A stretch of 64,000 nt of DNA from Planctomycetaceae bacterium (GTDB lineage: Bacteria > Planctomycetota > Planctomycetia > Pirellulales > UBA1268), in assembly GCA_947449135.1 (NCBI GenBank), contig CANFQO010000009.1, positions 1 through 64,000 of the forward strand, given 5' to 3'. How positions within the stretch are numbered: position 1 is the first letter of the stretch; every line of letters starts with the position of its first letter. The notes under the pieces are model-generated. The model was not told where the DNA came from, did no database searches, and was given only the letters and a program-made list of their open reading frames with translations. Of the stretch, positions 50,822 through 61,713 are shown in pieces. The translations under genes were made by a program, and so were the position numbers.

Positions 50822-52159
50822 CTACGATCGGCCCATCCATGACTGGAAGCGGCCGCCGGGATCGCGTGTCGAGCGGATCTGATCGAGGCGGGTCATGTTG
50901 GGCTGTGCCGCGAAGGGAGCGGAACGTTGGCCTAGATTCTCGTCGGCCAGTTGGATACCGACGCTCCAGGGATCCCATTCCCGCACCCTGTCCGCGGCCC
51001 AGTCTGCATAGAGCGGGTCGTCGGCCTCGTGCTTCCACTCACCGTAGAGTGCGATGTAGGTCTTCGCCTCCAGCGAGTAGGCCATCGACGGTCGCGACGG
51101 CGGCGGAGACCAGTTCAGCCAGAGCATGTGGCTGGGCGCGGGGGGTAGTGTGGCAGCGACCTTCAGCAGGCCCGGCATCAGGTGATCGACCGATGCGTTG
51201 GTCCACATATTGTCGACGCCCCAGCGCATCCCGTTGGGATAGTGCGTCATCACCAGGTCGTACATGATCTTCAACGGCGCCGGGAAGAGTGGCGAGGCCA
51301 GGCCCGACTTCGCACGCAGCGGGCAGTCGAGGAGGAAGGCCACGTCTGCCTTGGCGGCTTTCCTCGAGTCGGCCATCACCGTGGCATGCACCTCAATGCC
51401 GGGCTCGCCAATGGCGAGCGCCTTGCGGCTCATGATCAATTGAAACTCGACAGTGTTCGGGACCGATGCCCCGACAGCGTCGGTCCAGCGGAAGACATCC
51501 TCCAGGTGCGACATCCTGTAGACGTGGGTGACATTGCCGATGAACCGCGGGCAATCGTGGAGCTTCAGATGAAACCGCATGACCACACCGAAGAACCCCG
51601 GCCCGGCTCCTCTCGCCGCCCAGTAGATGTCGGCGTTCTCCTCCTCGCTGGCATGCACGAGCGATCCATCGGCCATCACGACGTCGAGTCCGATCACGCT
51701 CTCGCAGGCCATCCCCAGGGCGCGGCTGTTCCAGCCGAAGCCGCCCTGCAAGAGATAGCCCCCGAGGCAGACGCCCTTGCAGTGGCCAGCCGGAAAAAAG
51801 AGGCCATATTTCTTCAGGGCGCCGACCAGCATGGAGCCTCCGCAGCCGGGGCCGACGATCGCCCGCTTGTTGGCGGCATCGATCTCGACTCCCTGCAGCC
51901 GGGAGGCGTCGATCAGCATGCCCCCTTCACGGATGTGATTCTGGGCCCAGCTGTGTCCGCCGGAGCAGATGCTGACCTTGAGGTGTTCGCGTGCCGCCCG
52001 TTTCACCGCGGCGATCACGTCGAAGACATCATTCACCTGCACCAGCACCTTCGGCCGATGCCCAGGATCGCGACTGTTGAAGCTCGTGGCCAAGACGGCC
52101 TGGTCGAAGCCCGGGTCTTCCCGGTGCAGAGTGACGCCTCTGCTTGATGTGGATTTCAT
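50822..52159 (-). CDS. Berberine-bridge-type FAD-linked oxidase
   Basis: 445 aa. VAO/PCMH-fold flavoenzyme with a BBE C-terminus. FAD-binding region: SGGHSWAQN with the His that can carry 8-alpha-histidyl FAD, GPGCGGSML, the GLFFPAGHCKGVCLGGYLLQ segment and GGFGWNSRALG; the family's final motif is present (MTRLDQIRSTRDPGGRFQSW). Members oxidise alcohols, sugars or phenolic compounds with O2. No signal peptide is visible. It starts 22 bp after the PhlG-like gene stop, on the same strand, so the two are probably an operon. Confidence 0.85.
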   Translation of the reverse strand: MKSTSSRGVTLHREDPGFDQAVLATSFNSRDPGHRPKVLVQVNDVFDVIAAVKRAAREHLKVSICSGGHSWAQNHIREGGMLIDASRLQGVEIDAANKRAIVGPGCGGSMLVGALKKYGLFFPAGHCKGVCLGGYLLQGGFGWNSRALGMACESVIGLDVVMADGSLVHASEEENADIYWAARGAGPGFFGVVMRFHLKLHDCPRFIGNVTHVYRMSHLEDVFRWTDAVGASVPNTVEFQLIMSRKALAIGEPGIEVHATVMADSRKAAKADVAFLLDCPLRAKSGLASPLFPAPLKIMYDLVMTHYPNGMRWGVDNMWTNASVDHLMPGLLKVAATLPPAPSHMLWLNWSPPPSRPSMAYSLEAKTYIALYGEWKHEADDPLYADWAADRVREWDPWSVGIQLADENLGQRSAPFAAQPNMTRLDQIRSTRDPGGRFQSWMGRS

Positions 52160-52181
52160 GCCGTGGCTCCGGTGGTCGACA

Positions 52182-53006
52182 CTAGAGGGATGCCTGTGGG
52201 CCGAACGCCGCGTAGATGTCGGGCAGAATGGCGGCGAGATGGTTCATTTCCTGGGCGCAGTGCACGAGCAGGTCGCGGGCCTGGCCGCTTGTTGGCCCGG
52301 CGATCTGGCTGATTCCGCGACCGATCGCCTTGCCAATCGTCGTGTCCATGCCCCGAGGCGCAATAAAACCGCCCCCCATCCAGAAACGTGACCGCATTTC
52401 CGATCCGCCCGCCACGGGCCGCACGTAATGCACCAGCCATCCGGCGTCGAATTGAGGAAACTCAAGGCCCGTGCGGGCACAGATCGCCGTCGCCTCTGAG
52501 GCGGCCAGTCGCGACTCGTCGATGCCGATGCTGGCGGGAGGCACGAAGCTGATCGCACCGCTGATCTTGCTGGAGCCGATGTATTCCACGATGTGCGACG
52601 TGCGGCCGACGTAGTGCGTGAGGTCAGACCGGTTGTCGCCCCAGACGGCATGGACGTGTGCTCTGGGGTGCCAGAGTTTGTAGCGCAGGGAATCGCTGCC
52701 GTGCCAGGCAAACCACCAGTCCCACATCGCGGGCGTCACTCCCGGCATCAGCGTGCGGACCGACACGCGAATTTCCCTGTCGTCACAAATAGAGTAGCCC
52801 GTCTCCACTAGCCAGTCGTCGGCATGGAGCAGGGTGCCGGCGGCATCGAACCCGGGCATCAGTTCACCACTGACTCCCCCGACGAGGACGGCCTGCTGCA
52901 CATGGTCTGGCAGTGGCCGCATCTGCTGGCTGAAGAACCGAGAATAGGGGCTCTCGGCCAGTTCGGCGGCCGAATAACCGATGGTCTGGGGGGCGTGCGA
53001 TCCCAT
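52182..53006 (-). CDS. PhlG-like 2,4-diacetylphloroglucinol hydrolase family protein
   Basis: 274 aa from the ATG at 53006 (frame open to 53048). The sequence follows the DAPG-hydrolase (PhlG) family: MPGVTPAMWDWWFAWHG, then KLWHPRAHVHAVW with a zinc-ligand His, a Glu in SHIVEYIG, and a C-terminal HCAQEMNHLA that supplies the His-x-x-x-Glu zinc pair. PhlG cleaves a C-C bond of diacetylphloroglucinol by metal-assisted hydrolysis. The active-site ligands known for the family all have a counterpart here. The natural substrate is unknown; the neighbouring flavin oxidase and the divergent multicopper oxidase suggest a phenolic compound. Confidence 0.72.
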   Translation of the reverse strand: MGSHAPQTIGYSAAELAESPYSRFFSQQMRPLPDHVQQAVLVGGVSGELMPGFDAAGTLLHADDWLVETGYSICDDREIRVSVRTLMPGVTPAMWDWWFAWHGSDSLRYKLWHPRAHVHAVWGDNRSDLTHYVGRTSHIVEYIGSSKISGAISFVPPASIGIDESRLAASEATAICARTGLEFPQFDAGWLVHYVRPVAGGSEMRSRFWMGGGFIAPRGMDTTIGKAIGRGISQIAGPTSGQARDLLVHCAQEMNHLAAILPDIYAAFGPQASL

Positions 53007-53073
53007 TGGAAACAGCCTTTTACGGGTGAGAGAGGGTCCCCGCGGCACCCCCCGGAAATTGTGCGCAAAAAAC

Positions 53074-53101
53074 TTGCTGTGGCAGGAACGGAGTGTATGT
53101 T
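53074..53101 (+). promoter_or_regulatory. Possible promoter of the multicopper oxidase gene
   Basis: TTGCTG (53074-53079) and TATGTT (53096-53101) with a 16-bp spacer, followed by an AT-rich leader (TTAATTATTAG) and the ATG at 53156. This is an unusually AT-rich island for this genome. Divergent from the PhlG-like gene, so the 150-bp region 53007-53155 may control both. Confidence 0.35.
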
Positions 53102-53155
53102 TTGTTAATTATTAGAGCTAGCGTTCTGGTTTTTTGTTGCAGAAAGGCTTTTTCA

Positions 53156-55954
53156 ATGGTTCGCCGCACCGGGTTTCGATCGGCTTTTCCTGTCCGCAAG
53201 CATGCCGTCCGTGTGGCCCGCCGGGCCAGCAGGCAGTTTGATCTGGAGCAGCTTGAGCAGCGGACGGTGATGGCGGCAGAAAACGTTATTTTCCCTACCG
53301 CATATGCATCCCAGCAGACAGATCTGCGGCCGTTGGATGTAATCAAGAGCCAGAACGGCCTGCTCGAGGCCAACGTGAAGATGGTCACGGCAGGCTTCGA
53401 CTCCAATCCGATCCTCTACGGCGGACAGGAAGTCTACAGCAGCCTCCCGGATGATGACCGTGACTACAACTCCTACGCAATGGCCTATCAGTTCGATGCC
53501 TACGGCACGAAATACTCAGCCGGCTTTCCGGGCACGATGCTGCAGATCAACAGCGGCGACACGCTCAAGCTTCATCTCATAAATGATCTTGCCGGGGACA
53601 ACGATCCCTCTGATCCGGTCTTTACGACCAATTTCCACTACCACGGCTCGCATACGCCTGACCTGAGCCAGGGGGACAATGTCTATGTCCATATCAAGCC
53701 AGGCGAAACGGTGGACGTTAACATTCCGATCTCCACCTACGAAAATAGCGTGGGTGCCAACTGGTATCACCCACACGTGCACGAGGAGACCAAGCCGCAG
53801 GTTGAGGGTGGTCTGGCTGGCATGATCATGGTCGGCGATCCGCTTGAGCCGTGGCCACAGTACAAGGACGAACTCAAGCAAGTGAACATGACCCTCTCGG
53901 AGGTCAATATCTCCGTCGATGGCAAGTACAAAGTGATGACTGGTACTGACAGCAGTTCTTATTATGGTGACGGTTACACCACGGGCTGGCAGAAGCGGGT
54001 CAACGGCCAGATGAATCCGATCATCCGCGTCCGCCCCGGTGAGACGCAGGTCTGGAACATGGGCCAGTTCGGGGCCCGCGGCGCCACGAACTTCGTCATC
54101 GCCGACGACAACCTGCAGAACCCCTGGTCGGCCACGATCCTCTCCAGGGACGGGGCCAGTGCGTTCGTCCACCCCTACACCGTGGAACTCGGCGCGAGTG
54201 AACTGCGGATGAATGACATCTCCGCGCTCACCGTGCTCAGCCCGGGCAACCGTATGTCGATGGCGGTAACCGCCCCCACGACCCCGGGCACCTACTACTT
54301 CATGGACGGATGGGGCGGCGAAGAGGCGAGACTCAACGCAAGCGGCACTGGCTACTACTACGTGCTGGCCACCCTCGTCGTCGAGGGAGATGCCGTCACC
54401 ACTGACACGCCAGTGTTTGCCCCCCAGATGGCAGATCCGCTCTGGAAGGCGACGCCGGACGTCACTCGCACGTTCTCGCTAGAGCAGTTGCCCACCATTG
54501 ATGGTATTGATCCCGACACAGGCAAGCCGATCGTCAACATCGACAATTTCTACGTCAATGGCAAGAAGTTTGGCGAAGGCGTCATGCCGCAGCTTGAGAT
54601 CGGCACGATCGAGGAATGGACGATCCTCAATGCAGGCCCGCTCAACCATCCGTTCCACATCCATCAGGGTGTGTTCATCGTCACGAAGATCAACGGCTTC
54701 CCGATCGAGCCCGACAAGATCTTCCCGAATGCCAATGCCGCCAACTACGTCTCGCCGCTGGACGTGGACATGGTGCCGGCGTTCGGCAGCATTACCATTC
54801 GATTCCGGGTACTCGACTTCCCTGGCAAGTACGTCTTCCACTGCCACATCCTCGAGCATGAGGACGAGGGGATGATGTCGCCGGTCTTCCAGTTCGGCAA
54901 CACCGAGGGCCTGAGGCTGGGCCTTGGCACGTCGTCGCCATCGACGCTCGTTCTCAACGGCAAGGGCAACACGGTCGGCACGATTCGGGCCTTCCCCAAT
55001 TACCAGGGCCCTGTGGTGACCGCCTCCGGCATCGGCACATCGACCGAGAGCAAGCAGACGCCCCCGTTCGCCGGGACAGCCGAGCAGATCAATGCATACT
55101 TCAAGACCCAGATCACCAAGGAGACGATGGCCTTCGGCACCGGGGCAAAGGCCTCGCTCGTAAAGGTCTACGAGAACGGCTCGCTCAAGCCCACGGCCGC
55201 CTTCCGTGCCTTCAAGGGCAAGGCCGGCGTCGGGGGTGTGAGCCTGGCGGTGGGAGCGCTTGGTGAGCATGGCACCGTGAACATCGTCGTCGGCTCACGG
55301 ACTGCCGGCGCCGCCAATGTCCGTCTCTTCGACGCCAAGGGCACGCTGCTTCGTGAATTCAAGGGCGTGCTGCCCGGCAGGTTTCCCCACGGCGTGAACG
55401 TCGCCGTGGGTGACGTTGACGCCGACAACTACGACGACATCATCGTCTCCGCCCGTGCTGGCCGGGAGGCGATCATCACCGCGCTGAGTGGCCGTGATAT
55501 CGTCAACGGCGTCGCCGATCCCGAGAAGTGCTTCACGTTCGTTGCTCCAGGCGGAAGCCGCGATGGCGTCAAGGTAGCCGTCGGCTTCGCGGCACCCTCG
55601 ACGGTGCCAAGCTACAAGCCGAACCTGATCACGACACCGGAAACCGGCCGGAATGTCGGCACGGTGAGTGTGTGGAACATGGCGGACATCTGCCACTGCT
55701 CCACGCACGGAAGCCACGCCATGTCGGGCATGGCCGCGATGGAGGAGACCACTGTCGACGCTCCCCCCGTGCCCGTGGCAACGTTCCGTCCCTTTGGGGC
55801 CCGACGCGGTGCCGTGAATCTCGCCACCACCTACCAGAGCCAGTTAGGCGGGCAGGCCCAGGCGGTGGTCGCGGCCTGGCAGACGCCGCGTGAGGTGGCC
55901 TTCACGGCGATCGGACTCGACAACAAGCCGCAGACGGTAAGACGCAGATTTTAA
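53156..55954 (+). CDS. Secreted multicopper oxidase with LEPR-type N-terminus and FG-GAP-like tail
   Basis: 932 aa from the ATG at 53156. An Arg-rich start leads into [12 protein letters not shown] (near 30-40), the LEPR-type motif that in planctomycetes takes the place of a signal peptide. Multicopper oxidase core (about 45-590): copper ligands [21 protein letters not shown] and [13 protein letters not shown] are complete, including the axial Met. The last 330 residues hold FG-GAP/propeller-like repeats with a calcium-type loop ([16 protein letters not shown] near 770) and a Cys/His/Met patch ([17 protein letters not shown], near 850) that could bind copper. It probably oxidises phenolics or metals outside the cell. 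Confidence 0.85.
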
Positions 55955-57064: not shown

Positions 57065-58612
57065 TCAGCCGCCGGTTGCGGCTTCCATGATCTTCTGTTC
57101 GGTCGCCTCGGCCCGTGGAAATTCCGCAGTCAGCCGGCCCTCGGCGAGCACGATGATGCGGTCGGCGAGCGTGAGCAGTTCTGGGAGTTCGCTCGACGTG
57201 AGAATCACGCCGAGCCCATCGCGACAGAGCCGGTCGATGAGCGCGTAGAGTTCGGCCTTCGCCCCGACGTCGATGCCTCGTGTGGGGTCGTCGAGCAGCA
57301 GGATCGCGGGCTTCGTGAGCAGCCAGCGGCTGATGATGCACTTCTGCTGGTTCCCACCGGAGAGGCCCGTGATGGCGGCGTGCGGCCCCGGCGTCTTGAC
57401 GCCCGTGTCGCGGATCGGCCCGGCCACGAGTTCCTCTTCTCGCTGCCGCGAGAGCAGTCCACCGCGGAGAGCCTCGGAGAGGCTGCAGAGGCTCACGTTG
57501 CCGGCCACGTCGAGATCGGGAAAGAGCCCAAGCCGCTTGCGGTCTTCCGTCACCATCGCGATGCGGGCGTCGCACGCCTCCCGCGGATGTCGATAGTGAA
57601 CCGGCTTTCCATCCAGCCGGATTTCGCCGGTCCAAGTCGGCTCGCCAGCGCCGAAGATCGTCTCCAAAAGCTCAGTGCGGCCGGCGCCCATCAGGCCCGC
57701 CACGCCGAGAATTTCGCCGGCGTGCAGATCGAACGACACGTTGGAGAGCCGATAGCCCCGCGGGTGATCCGGCCAGGGGAGCGTGAGGTCGCGAACCTCG
57801 AGCAATGTCGGGCCGCGGGTGCGGGCATGGCGAAAGTCATGGTCGGCCAGTTCGCGTCCCACCATCCAGCCGGTGATCTGGCGGGGGCTCGTGTCAGCCC
57901 GGTCAACCGTGCGGACATGCTGGCCATCACGGAGGACGGTGATCCGATCGGCCAGCCGAAACACTTCGTCCATCTTGTGCGAGATGTAGAGGATCGTGGT
58001 GCCGACAGCCAGCAGTCGCTTGATCGTGCGTTCGAGCCTCGCCGATTCCGACTCGGTGAGGGCGCTGGTCGGTTCGTCCATCACCACGATCGACGCCTCG
58101 AGCGACAGGGCCTTGGCGATCTCCACCAACTGCTGGTCGCCCACCCGCAGGCTGCCTGTCCGCGTGGCCGGCGACACCGGGCATTCAAGCATGGCGAGCA
58201 GCCGGCCGCATTCGTCGTGCATGCCGCGGTCGTCGAGCAGCCCGAGGGCGGTGCGTTTTTCACGGCCGAGAAACACGTTGGCGGCCACCGAGAGATCTTC
58301 CACGAGCGCCAGCTCCTGGTGGATGATCGCAATCCCGGCCTGCTCGGCATCCCGCGTGCCGGCAAACCGCACCGGCCGCCCGGCGATCTCGAGGTCACCC
58401 TCGTCGGGCTGGTAGACGCCCGATAGGATCTTCATGAGCGTGCTCTTGCCGGCACCGTTCTCGCCACAGATGGCGTGGAGTTCGCCACGGCGGACCTCGA
58501 GTGTCACATCGGCAAGCGCCACGACACCCGGAAATCGCTTCGTGATGCCCCGCATCACGACAGCCTGCGTCGTCGCGTCTCCCATGCCGGTAGTATCAGC
58601 GGCTGCTGTCAT
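57065..58612 (-). CDS. Sugar ABC transporter ATP-binding protein (RbsA/MglA type)
   Basis: 515 aa from the ATG at 58612. Two ABC domains in one chain, as in RbsA/XylG/MglA. The first has Walker A CGENGAGKST, signature LRVGDQQLVEIAKA and Walker B IVVMDEPTSAL; the second lacks a normal Walker A (GLMGAGRTELL) but has LSGGNQQKCIISRWL and LLLDDPTRGIDVGAK. That asymmetry is normal for this family. Last gene of the three-gene transporter, 16 bp after the permease. Confidence 0.95.
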   Translation of the reverse strand: MTAAADTTGMGDATTQAVVMRGITKRFPGVVALADVTLEVRRGELHAICGENGAGKSTLMKILSGVYQPDEGDLEIAGRPVRFAGTRDAEQAGIAIIHQELALVEDLSVAANVFLGREKRTALGLLDDRGMHDECGRLLAMLECPVSPATRTGSLRVGDQQLVEIAKALSLEASIVVMDEPTSALTESESARLERTIKRLLAVGTTILYISHKMDEVFRLADRITVLRDGQHVRTVDRADTSPRQITGWMVGRELADHDFRHARTRGPTLLEVRDLTLPWPDHPRGYRLSNVSFDLHAGEILGVAGLMGAGRTELLETIFGAGEPTWTGEIRLDGKPVHYRHPREACDARIAMVTEDRKRLGLFPDLDVAGNVSLCSLSEALRGGLLSRQREEELVAGPIRDTGVKTPGPHAAITGLSGGNQQKCIISRWLLTKPAILLLDDPTRGIDVGAKAELYALIDRLCRDGLGVILTSSELPELLTLADRIIVLAEGRLTAEFPRAEATEQKIMEAATGG

Positions 58613-58628
58613 GCTCGCCCTCGCGTCA

Positions 58629-59840
58629 TCAGGCAGTCCGCCGCGATTCCCAGAGCCGCACCAGCCCCAGCAACACAGCCGCTCCGACGCCCGCGGCAAT
58701 GCCGGCGCGGCTACCGGCCGTCATCGACACGATGGCACCGCAGAGAACCGCCAGCGTGGGGATCGCACTCAGTCCCAGAGCCCCCGGCAGCAGCTGGCGG
58801 CCACCCTTGGCGAGTTGGCCGAACTGCGCGAGCGTGACAGCGATCACCACCACGATGCCGACGATCAGTCCTTCGTAGACGTCGGCTCCCGTCTTGATGA
58901 TCTTCGATACCGCGTCGATCACGACCCGCAGGAAGATCGTGCCGAGTACCGTGCCGGGCACCGTGCCGACCCCGCCTGCCAATGAGCAGCCTCCCACGAC
59001 GGCCGCGGCGATGGCATTGAGTTCATGGCCGCGTCCCTGATTCACCGGCGCGGCCACCGATTCGTTGGCCATGTAGAACAGTCCCGCCAGCGCCGCCGTC
59101 ATGGCGCCAAAGCAGTAGGCGAACCATTTGACGTTATCGGTGCGGATGCCGGCGAGCCGTGCGGCCTGTTCGTTACCCCCGAGCGCGTGGAGATGCCGGC
59201 CGAGGACCGTCCGCGTGAGCAGAAGCCAGGTGACGATCGCGAGCACGCCGAACACTGCCACCGGAATCCAGACGTTGTCGCGGACTGTCTTGAAGAACGG
59301 GTCGGAGATATTGATAAGCGCACTTTTCGTGGGGGTGAGCGCCGCAGTGCTGCTCTCGCAGAGAGCCCGGGCAAAGCTCCGCAGGCCCACGAGGGTCGCC
59401 AGCGTGGCGATGAACGGGGGAAGCCGCACGGAGGTGATCAGCCACGCATGGAGGGTGCCGACGAGAAATCCAACCAACAGGCTCGCGGCACAGCCGGCGG
59501 CTACGGCGACGGCCCCGACCGGCTTGAAGCCCATCATCTGGGCAGGGGCGAGGGCCAGCATTGTCGTGGCACAGACGGTGCCCGAGAGCGCGATCATCGA
59601 TCCTGCCGAGAGGTCGATCCCGCCGGCGATGATCACCACGGTGGCCCCAAGGGCAAAGATGCCGAGGAGGGCCGTGTTGCGGGCGATGTCACGCACGCTC
59701 TCCAGCGGACGGTCCCAGTAGCTGTGGTTGGCGTCCACCAAGGCCGTCACCGCGATCGCCAGCACGATCGCCAGCACGAGCGCCCATTCACCCGGGCGGA
59801 GGAGGAAAGACGGCCTGTGCGAGGCGTCCGGCTGTGGCAT
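58629..59840 (-). CDS. Sugar ABC transporter permease (RbsC-like)
   Basis: 403 aa, eight to ten hydrophobic segments of the BPD-transp-2 family. Typical motifs: the ATVVIIAGGIDLSAGSMIAL segment, the GRHLHALGGNEQAARLAGI loop, and VGGCSLAGGVGTVPGTVLG. The C-terminal portion (AGSRAGIAAGVGAAVLLG) adds two extra segments beyond the usual length (about 320). Forms the membrane channel with the ATPase downstream and the binding lipoprotein upstream. Confidence 0.93.
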   Translation of the reverse strand: MPQPDASHRPSFLLRPGEWALVLAIVLAIAVTALVDANHSYWDRPLESVRDIARNTALLGIFALGATVVIIAGGIDLSAGSMIALSGTVCATTMLALAPAQMMGFKPVGAVAVAAGCAASLLVGFLVGTLHAWLITSVRLPPFIATLATLVGLRSFARALCESSTAALTPTKSALINISDPFFKTVRDNVWIPVAVFGVLAIVTWLLLTRTVLGRHLHALGGNEQAARLAGIRTDNVKWFAYCFGAMTAALAGLFYMANESVAAPVNQGRGHELNAIAAAVVGGCSLAGGVGTVPGTVLGTIFLRVVIDAVSKIIKTGADVYEGLIVGIVVVIAVTLAQFGQLAKGGRQLLPGALGLSAIPTLAVLCGAIVSMTAGSRAGIAAGVGAAVLLGLVRLWESRRTA

Positions 59841-59885
59841 GGCTGGGCTCCGGCTGGAGGATGCTCTGGGGGCGGCGAGCCTGCG

Positions 59886-61058
59886 TCAGGAGCTCGACAG
59901 GCCGTACTTCGCCAGCCACTCGCGGAATGCCGGCAGCGGCATCACCTCGACGTTTTTTGTTTCCAGCTTCTCGCCGCTGAGTGGCGACTCGCCAGCCGGC
60001 ACGATCAGCCGCAGTCCCGTGGCGTAGATGTCGCCATCGGGCTCACCCCGCCGCGGAAACATTTCCTTGACGGTCGCTTCGTCGCCCGTATGCATGGCAC
60101 GCAGCAGGCGGACGGTCTGGACACCCATTTCAAAGGGGTTCTGCACCACCATGGCGTCGATCTTTCCTTCGGCCATATGGTTCAGGGCTGCCGCCTGAGC
60201 GTCGAACGTGATGATCGTCAGCTGGTCGCGAACGCCGCGCTCCATGGCGACTTCGGCAATGGCCGGTGCGTTGTAGGCCCAGATGCCGACCAGCGACACC
60301 AGGTCGGGGTGGTTGACCAGGGCGGTGCGGACGTTGTCGCGGGCCTTGGAGAGGTCCATCTCGTCGCTCATGCGGTCGACTTCCTTGAAGCCGCCGCCGA
60401 CCGCTTCCTTGAAGCCGTTCATGCGTGCCCGTGCGTTGTCGTTGTCGGTGAAACCGGCGAACTGCACGTAGCCACCGGATGACTTGCCACGGCTTTCGAG
60501 GAGCGTCTTGGCCGCGGTGCCGAGCAGCCGGCCGCCGACCACGTTGTCGGTGCCGATGTAGAAGGGCCGCGCGTCGCGAAACGTATCCCGGTTCACGTCG
60601 CTATCGACCGTGATCACCTTCACGCCCTTGGCGGCAAGGTTCTTCATCTCTTCGACGATCGCCACATTCTCGGCCTGGATGACGGAGATCGCGACGCCAG
60701 CAACGTCAGACTGGCTGCCGAGTTGCCGGAGTTTCTCAATCTGGCCCTGTGCGGTGCCATTGTTCTTCTCCATCACGACGCGGAGCCCCTGCGACCCGAC
60801 GTCGAATTGCTTCCCGCCTTCGATCAGTCCGGCGTTGCACGCATCCCAGAAGGGATCGTCGCCGTTGGTGATGAAGATCAGCCGCTTGGGGCCCGACGAG
60901 CCACCAGCTGCTGCGGTGTCGCCAGCGGCGGGAGTTGCAGCGCCGGGAGCAGTCGCCGGCTTGCCGGAGCAGCCGGCGATTGCGAGCGGAAGCACGCCTC
61001 CCACAAGCAGGAGGGCCGCCCAACAGCGGCGAGAGACGTTCACGTTGTGACGATGCAT
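59886..61058 (-). CDS. Sugar-binding lipoprotein of the ABC transporter
   Basis: 390 aa. Lipobox LAIAGC at about residue 30 after a hydrophobic segment, then a type-1 periplasmic-binding fold: LIFITNGDDPFWDACNAGL, GVAISVIQAENV, VITVDSDVN, FYIGTDNVVGG, TIITFDAQAAAL. The fold matches ribose/xylose/galactose binding proteins; the sugar is not identifiable. First gene of the transporter operon, 45 bp before the permease. The low-complexity linker after the lipid Cys (Ala/Thr/Gly) is usual for such lipoproteins. Confidence 0.92.
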   Translation of the reverse strand: MHRHNVNVSRRCWAALLLVGGVLPLAIAGCSGKPATAPGAATPAAGDTAAAGGSSGPKRLIFITNGDDPFWDACNAGLIEGGKQFDVGSQGLRVVMEKNNGTAQGQIEKLRQLGSQSDVAGVAISVIQAENVAIVEEMKNLAAKGVKVITVDSDVNRDTFRDARPFYIGTDNVVGGRLLGTAAKTLLESRGKSSGGYVQFAGFTDNDNARARMNGFKEAVGGGFKEVDRMSDEMDLSKARDNVRTALVNHPDLVSLVGIWAYNAPAIAEVAMERGVRDQLTIITFDAQAAALNHMAEGKIDAMVVQNPFEMGVQTVRLLRAMHTGDEATVKEMFPRRGEPDGDIYATGLRLIVPAGESPLSGEKLETKNVEVMPLPAFREWLAKYGLSSS

Positions 61059-61173: not shown

Positions 61174-61713
61174 TCAGTAGCGTAATCCATTCTTCCGCAC
61201 GTGTACCAGTGGGGTCGCTTCAGGGCCGGTGCCGGCACCGACCACGCGGGCCAGAATGATCACATGGTCGCCCGTCACGCCGCCGCCTCCGCCAGCCTGT
61301 GTCACGGCCTGGCATTCAAGCCAGGCGCTCGCATCGGCGATGACGGCGGTGCCCGAACCAGAGCGTTCGATGCGGAGGCCGTCAAAGGGATTCTCACCCG
61401 GGCCAGCAGGGCGTCCAAACCGGGACACCAGCGACCGCTGCGATTCCCCCAGCACGTTGACGACGAACGGCGTGCACTGATCGATCGCGGCCAGCAGGTC
61501 TCGCGATGTGCTCACCGCAATCGTGATCAGCGGCGGCACGAATCCGCCCTGCATGATCCAACTCGCGAGCATGCCCCGGTCCGTCGCGTCGGCATCGTTC
61601 TCCGCTGCCCGCCATGTCACCACGAACAGTCCGCTGGGGATGCGTCCCAATGCAGCGGCAGTGGCCTCGGTATCAACTGGTTCATTCTGGGCGTTTGGCT
61701 GCGGTTGCGTCAT
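61174..61713 (-). CDS. Flavin reductase family protein
   Basis: 179 aa FMN-binding split-barrel protein. GRIPSGLFVVTWRA, the MLASWIMQGGFVPPLITIAVS segment and FVVNVLGESQR are the family core, ending with DHVIILARVVGAG. It resembles the flavin-reductase-like domain of diflavin proteins (NADH or reduced-flavin partner). Substrate and electron partner unknown. It lies 115 bp upstream of the sugar-binding lipoprotein gene on the same strand and may be a separate transcript. Confidence 0.82.
   Translation of the reverse strand: MTQPQPNAQNEPVDTEATAAALGRIPSGLFVVTWRAAENDADATDRGMLASWIMQGGFVPPLITIAVSTSRDLLAAIDQCTPFVVNVLGESQRSLVSRFGRPAGPGENPFDGLRIERSGSGTAVIADASAWLECQAVTQAGGGGGVTGDHVIILARVVGAGTGPEATPLVHVRKNGLRY

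Follow-up and report, generated by a model that had tools for sequence, protein, structure and literature searches.

What unites a PhlG-like hydrolase, a flavin oxidase and a multicopper oxidase that lie around a single divergent region in a planctomycete genome? The question is raised by positions 50822-55954 of contig CANFQO010000009.1 of a Planctomycetaceae bacterium (genome 3.69 Mb, 96% complete), of which we analysed the first 64,000 nucleotides, here called the window. A preliminary description had read the three genes as one cluster that would act on acylated polyphenols. It placed the genes where we find them: the hydrolase stop codon lies 22 bp before the start of the flavin oxidase downstream, as described, and the start codons of the hydrolase and the multicopper oxidase diverge across 149 bp, close to the 150 bp it had given. 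The features are as follows.

50822-52159, minus strand: EncM/BBE-like (berberine bridge enzyme-like) covalent flavin adenine dinucleotide (FAD) oxidase, 445 amino acids, cassette gene 2; PF01565, 102 bits
52182-53006, minus strand: PhlG-like zinc-dependent C-C hydrolase, 274 amino acids from ATG, cassette gene 1; PF18089
53007-53155, no strand: 149 bp separating the diverging start codons of cassette gene 1 and the multicopper oxidase
53156-55954, plus strand: multicopper oxidase, 932 amino acids from ATG, neighbour gene

The hydrolase and the FAD oxidase are a conserved two-gene unit that is inherited together, and the multicopper oxidase is an unrelated neighbour outside that unit. We lean towards reading 50822-53006 as a horizontally acquired cassette whose two enzymes act on a phloroglucinol-type substrate. 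The two genes are probably made from one transcript; a consensus scan of 53007-53155 found no sigma-70-like promoter.

The evidence for the unit comes from its relatives. Relatives of the hydrolase were sought in 84,980 species genomes; of the 181 stretches obtained, the best 80 were kept and pooled with loci of the window's order. By the criteria used, 80 loci of the pooled set hold a full hydrolase. In 69 of them the orthologous FAD oxidase is encoded on the same strand, no more than 27 nt away (median gap -4, the gaps depending on automatically chosen start codons). Counts of neighbours are lower bounds throughout, as the simple gene caller missed genes on antisense-rich loci. The 69 paired loci span Planctomycetota, Proteobacteria and Mycobacterium, and both gene orders occur: the hydrolase comes first in Proteobacteria and the window's genus, the oxidase in mycobacteria and the other planctomycetes. 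Partners that stay adjacent in both orders are strong evidence of a joint function. Of 397 genomes of the window's order, 7 have an intact hydrolase, and the orthologous oxidase (>500 bits) is present in these 7 and in no other (Fisher p ~3e-15, computed ignoring relatedness). Among the 11 loci without a close oxidase, 6 end near a contig edge, 1 (L086) has a broken oxidase frame and 4 (L041, L045, L046 and L050) fall in a side clade of hydrolases from Comamonadaceae, which has no oxidase. In all four of the latter a FadL-type porin lies upstream of the hydrolase, and in L041 and L050 a branched-chain-type ATP-binding cassette (ABC) transporter lies downstream. Another locus with a Comamonadaceae-type cluster, L044 (CALPPP020000116.1), is titled Rickettsia typhi and is probably a mislabelled or contaminated metagenome-assembled genome.

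In the multicopper oxidase, all four copper-ligand motifs can be read in the translation, PF07731 and PF07732 score over cut-off, and its C-terminal part is FG-GAP-like, just below the Pfam cut-off. Its N-terminus carries an LEQLEQR stretch of a type known from exported planctomycete proteins. The gene was found in 7 of 60 genomes of the window's family, and the divergent arrangement with the pair, shared by the window and the sister genome G258, is what speaks for three enzymes acting jointly on polyphenols. Four relatives (G060, G070, G184 and G117), however, have the copper oxidase without an intact pair. In G184, from the window's genus, 265 bp lie between copper oxidase and ThiF and no sign of the pair is seen, which makes this an empty site. 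G117, of the same genus, carries hydrolase remnants on two contigs (L024:36-401 and L025:2826-3005), both with one and the same in-frame TAG; on the first, beside ThiF, a deletion runs from mid-hydrolase to the last oxidase codons, and on the second the copper oxidase frame is still open next to the decayed pair. In the loci scanned, no copper-oxidase homologue lies near the pair outside the window's genus. The 149-bp shared region is thus most readily explained as a side effect of where the cassette landed, and not as the mark of a three-gene unit. Because the copper oxidase is unlinked in relatives, the three-gene proposal fails, as the preliminary description had itself said it would in that event, and the two-gene proposal passes; joint action of all three enzymes is hardly credible.

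The trees of the hydrolase and the oxidase are concordant. In both, the window and its sister G258 group with Proteobacteria and the other planctomycetes group with mycobacteria, a split that has 100/99 support in the oxidase tree. Since the pair groups with proteobacterial copies, the cassette was probably acquired horizontally, and most simply the planctomycetes gained it twice; as the trees have no root or only a distant one, the direction of transfer is inferred. Vertical inheritance within the planctomycetes is disfavoured, as each tree has their copies at two different positions. The pair does not stand out as foreign by its base composition, so the transfer may be an old one.

What reaction, then, would the cassette carry out? 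The hydrolase matches the DAPG_hydrolase family PF18089 (E=9.6e-56, 189.3 bits, curated cut-off 22.7), and its sequence aligns with both Mycobacterium abscessus phloretin hydrolase and Pseudomonas PhlG. Its AlphaFold2 model (pLDDT 93.7) matches the structures of both, 5xe5 and 3hwp, with TM scores of ~0.8, although identity in the structural alignment is just 27-32%. The zinc ligands H129, E160, H270 and E274 of PhlG correspond to H117, E141, H249 and E253, bearing out the His, Glu and HxxxE ligands that had been noticed before. They are invariant across an alignment of 82 homologous hydrolase sequences, as are PhlG Y121 and H214, and all six residues are common to PhlG, phloretin hydrolase and the window enzyme. 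The PhlG equivalog model NF047887 gave 97.7 bits and did not reach its cut-off of 600. The position of PhlG Y229 is Phe in 77 of the 82 members, among them the window enzyme with F208, and that of N132 is Ala, Val or Ser, the window enzyme having A120. We take Y121, N132 and Y229 to be substrate contacts of PhlG, as listed by He et al. 2010. With Phe for Y229 and Ala for N132, the substrate contacts of the window enzyme would be unlike those of PhlG, from which it differs also by its conserved FAD-oxidase partner. These two changes disfavour 2,4-diacetylphloroglucinol (DAPG) itself as the substrate.

The second enzyme has a FAD_binding_4 domain (PF01565), and the BBE C-terminal domain PF08031 gave no match in it even at E<=1. 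Its model (pLDDT 92.2) was matched by Foldseek with probability 1.00 to many BBE-like structures of the vanillyl-alcohol oxidase (VAO) fold. The earlier label of BBE oxidase thus suits the fold and the FAD-binding domain, but not the C-terminal domain, and the closest solved relative is EncM (4xlo, TM 0.87-0.89, 24% identity). The TM score to SorD (9h8u), which binds the acylphenol sorbicillin, is 0.85. The flavin-linking His of EncM is shared (H69) and is invariant in the oxidase alignment. C127 of the window oxidase stands where bicovalent enzymes have their second flavin link; among 74 oxidases, those of planctomycetes and mycobacteria retain this Cys, whereas 29 of the 30 proteobacterial members have Ala. 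Residue 127 (51779-51781, minus strand) would thus offer a natural contrast between mono- and bicovalent enzymes. The window enzyme differs from EncM in that T139 aligns with Val130, so that the Thr of the EncM O2 pocket is absent; a T139V mutant of EncM had oxidase activity (PMC7662398). It is further set apart from EncM-, VAO- and BBE-type enzymes by the clade motif QLADEN near the C-terminus and by the missing PF08031 match. Judging from these sequence features, the protein would have oxidase chemistry.

The substrate is suggested by the company that the pair keeps in other genomes. The row in L033 consists of a PF04199 cyclase, a cupin, a short-chain dehydrogenase/reductase (SDR), a 3-hydroxyacyl-CoA-dehydrogenase-family protein, a BKACE, a FadL-type porin, two PhlG-like hydrolases and the oxidase. 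In L033 and L060 the SDR has as its best solved relative, by far, 5g4k/5g4l, which we take to be Clostridium phloroglucinol reductase. By direct reading of the sequence, without a register check against CsDPGC itself, the cyclases of the same two loci have W-P-Y at the place of Trp20 and Tyr22 of CsDPGC, and so keep the W-x-Y of DPGC. The passages of PMC10470551 on phloroglucinol degradation describe a cluster, PGR-DPGC-TfD-TAL, all four gene families of which stand beside the pair in L033. Gene families of this pathway adjoin the pair in L033 and L058, and part of the set does so in L042, L060 and L061. The mycobacterial version in the same passages also includes a phloretin hydrolase, and those passages on the cluster do not mention a FAD oxidase (PMC10470551). 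Unlike that cluster, the surroundings of the pair in the window contain none of its genes.

A second type of neighbourhood occurs in L029, L030, L031 and L034, where an operon-like run 0-25 nt upstream encodes a phenol hydroxylase, a FAA-family hydrolase and an intradiol dioxygenase whose closest matches are PnpC and hydroxyquinol 1,2-dioxygenases. No maleylacetate reductase was recognised in these clusters, and for that reason the FAA-family hydrolase would fit the dioxoadipate formed from 1,2,3,5-tetrahydroxybenzene; the run may represent an oxygenolytic route for phloroglucinol. Several pair-bearing clusters also contain a coenzyme A (CoA) ligase, an enoyl-CoA hydratase and a FadL-type porin. 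An AtsA-like arylsulfatase lies downstream of the pair in L031, L036 and L039, and other sulfatases do so in L020 and L060. The substrate would be a polyhydroxyphenyl compound, most likely of the phloroglucinol type; because the pathway evidence comes from few lineages, we regard this class as fairly probable and no more. The acylated phenols of phloroglucinol type that the preliminary description had in mind are favoured by these clusters, whereas DAPG is not, and the link that it drew to brown algae is doubtful, since most of the nearest relatives look inland-water (by record names only).

Taken together, the FAD oxidase and O2 would oxidise a phloroglucinol-type (polyhydroxyphenyl) substrate, most simply from a side-chain carbinol to an aryl ketone, and the zinc hydrolase would then cleave, in a retro-Claisen reaction, the C-C bond between the ring and the acyl group. 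The products would be a carboxylic acid and a free polyhydroxybenzene, which in many proteobacteria would enter ring-degradation and acyl-CoA genes. That oxidation comes before cleavage is about an even bet. Several observations weigh against this proposal. The clusters with pathway genes come from few, partly related lineages, and the SDR of L033 and L060 does not have the TR(S/N) motif that phloroglucinol reductase is reported to contain. Two of the three PhlG substrate-contact residues are altered, and only Y121 is kept. In the literature we found no assayed function for the pair or for either protein. In the window organism, the genome contains neither an intradiol dioxygenase nor a BKACE and has only one PF04199 match, and no catabolic neighbours of the pair are present in the window. 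Without these ring routes or a catabolic neighbour, complete ring degradation by either of them is unsupported there, and so is the organism as a full phloroglucinol degrader. It probably uses the cassette for harvesting the acyl acid or for detoxifying acylphenols.

Some of these points have other readings. The same pair could act on another nucleus, such as a resorcinol- or hydroxyquinol-type aryl ketone (e.g. a 2,4-dihydroxyphenyl ketone), or the oxidase could act on the released product. Phe at Y229 and Ala or Val at N132 would suit a ring whose hydroxyls are fewer or sit elsewhere, and the upstream dioxygenases of L029-L031 and L034 are closest to hydroxyquinol enzymes. All four phloroglucinol-pathway families beside the pair in L033 argue the other way, as do dioxygenase clusters that have a FAA-family hydrolase and no recognised maleylacetate reductase, and we consider a different nucleus rather unlikely. 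Alternatively, the cassette could serve not catabolism but the inactivation of antimicrobial acylphenols from neighbours, DAPG-like compounds, in the way that PhlG breaks down an antibiotic (PMC8003664). This would agree with a cassette that is patchy and mobile in its distribution and that stands alone in the window genome, which lacks both ring-degradation routes. In Proteobacteria, however, the pair sits with a porin, CoA ligase, hydratase and ring-degradation genes, a setting that fits catabolism; as a general explanation detoxification is unlikely, but it may hold for the window organism.

The cells could also turn over a phenolic lipid of their own making, for example an alkylresorcinol that a type III polyketide synthase would supply. 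Planctomycetota have been reported to make alkylresorcinols (PMC10896814). The window genome has a match to the type III polyketide synthase family (G000:C41:9952-10239), a possible endogenous source of alkylphenols, and so do three other pair-bearing genomes of the order. But two complete genomes with the pair, G013 and G038, lack such a match, none adjoins the pair, and alkylresorcinols have no ring ketone to cleave, so this origin of the substrate is very improbable.

The hydrolase subfamily extends to freshwater-type proteobacteria, two separate planctomycete branches and mycobacteria. It was found in 64 of 149 sampled Mycobacterium genomes, and the oxidase adjoins it in 29 of 30 further mycobacterial loci checked. 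In M. tuberculosis, Rv1775 has been modelled as a PhlG-like C-C hydrolase of unassigned substrate (PMC8562490), and Rv1774 is described elsewhere as a FAD oxidoreductase similar to cytokinin oxidase (PMC11925245). Besides this structure-based prediction and this remark on similarity, the literature consulted on the two genes gave one mutant screen and one expression list. Their consecutive numbers without a 'c' suffix fit the oxidase-hydrolase order of other mycobacteria, which is reversed relative to the window. By literature and gene numbering, Rv1774-Rv1775 looks like the same pair as the window cassette. If the oxidise-then-cleave chemistry is true, it would give this unassigned gene pair a testable role and provide a marker for aerobic polyphenol breakdown. 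We tentatively suggest a widely exchanged module, not yet described, in which a covalent FAD oxidase and a PhlG-like retro-Claisen hydrolase open phloroglucinol-type polyphenols with oxidisable side chains and feed reductive or oxygenolytic ring degradation, and which would give Rv1774-Rv1775 a concrete function. We found no paper on the hydrolase-oxidase pair as such.

Two PhlG-like hydrolase genes stand in tandem before the oxidase in L033 (L033:8108-9831), L042 (L042:2124-3829), L058 (L058:4179-5796) and L061 (L061:2200-3426); in L058 and in L061 the contig ends before the second of them is complete. Elsewhere in the window, a sugar-type ABC transporter operon on the minus strand (57065-61058) encodes an ATPase, a permease and a periplasmic binding protein, and a flavin reductase-like gene lies upstream of it at 61174-61713.

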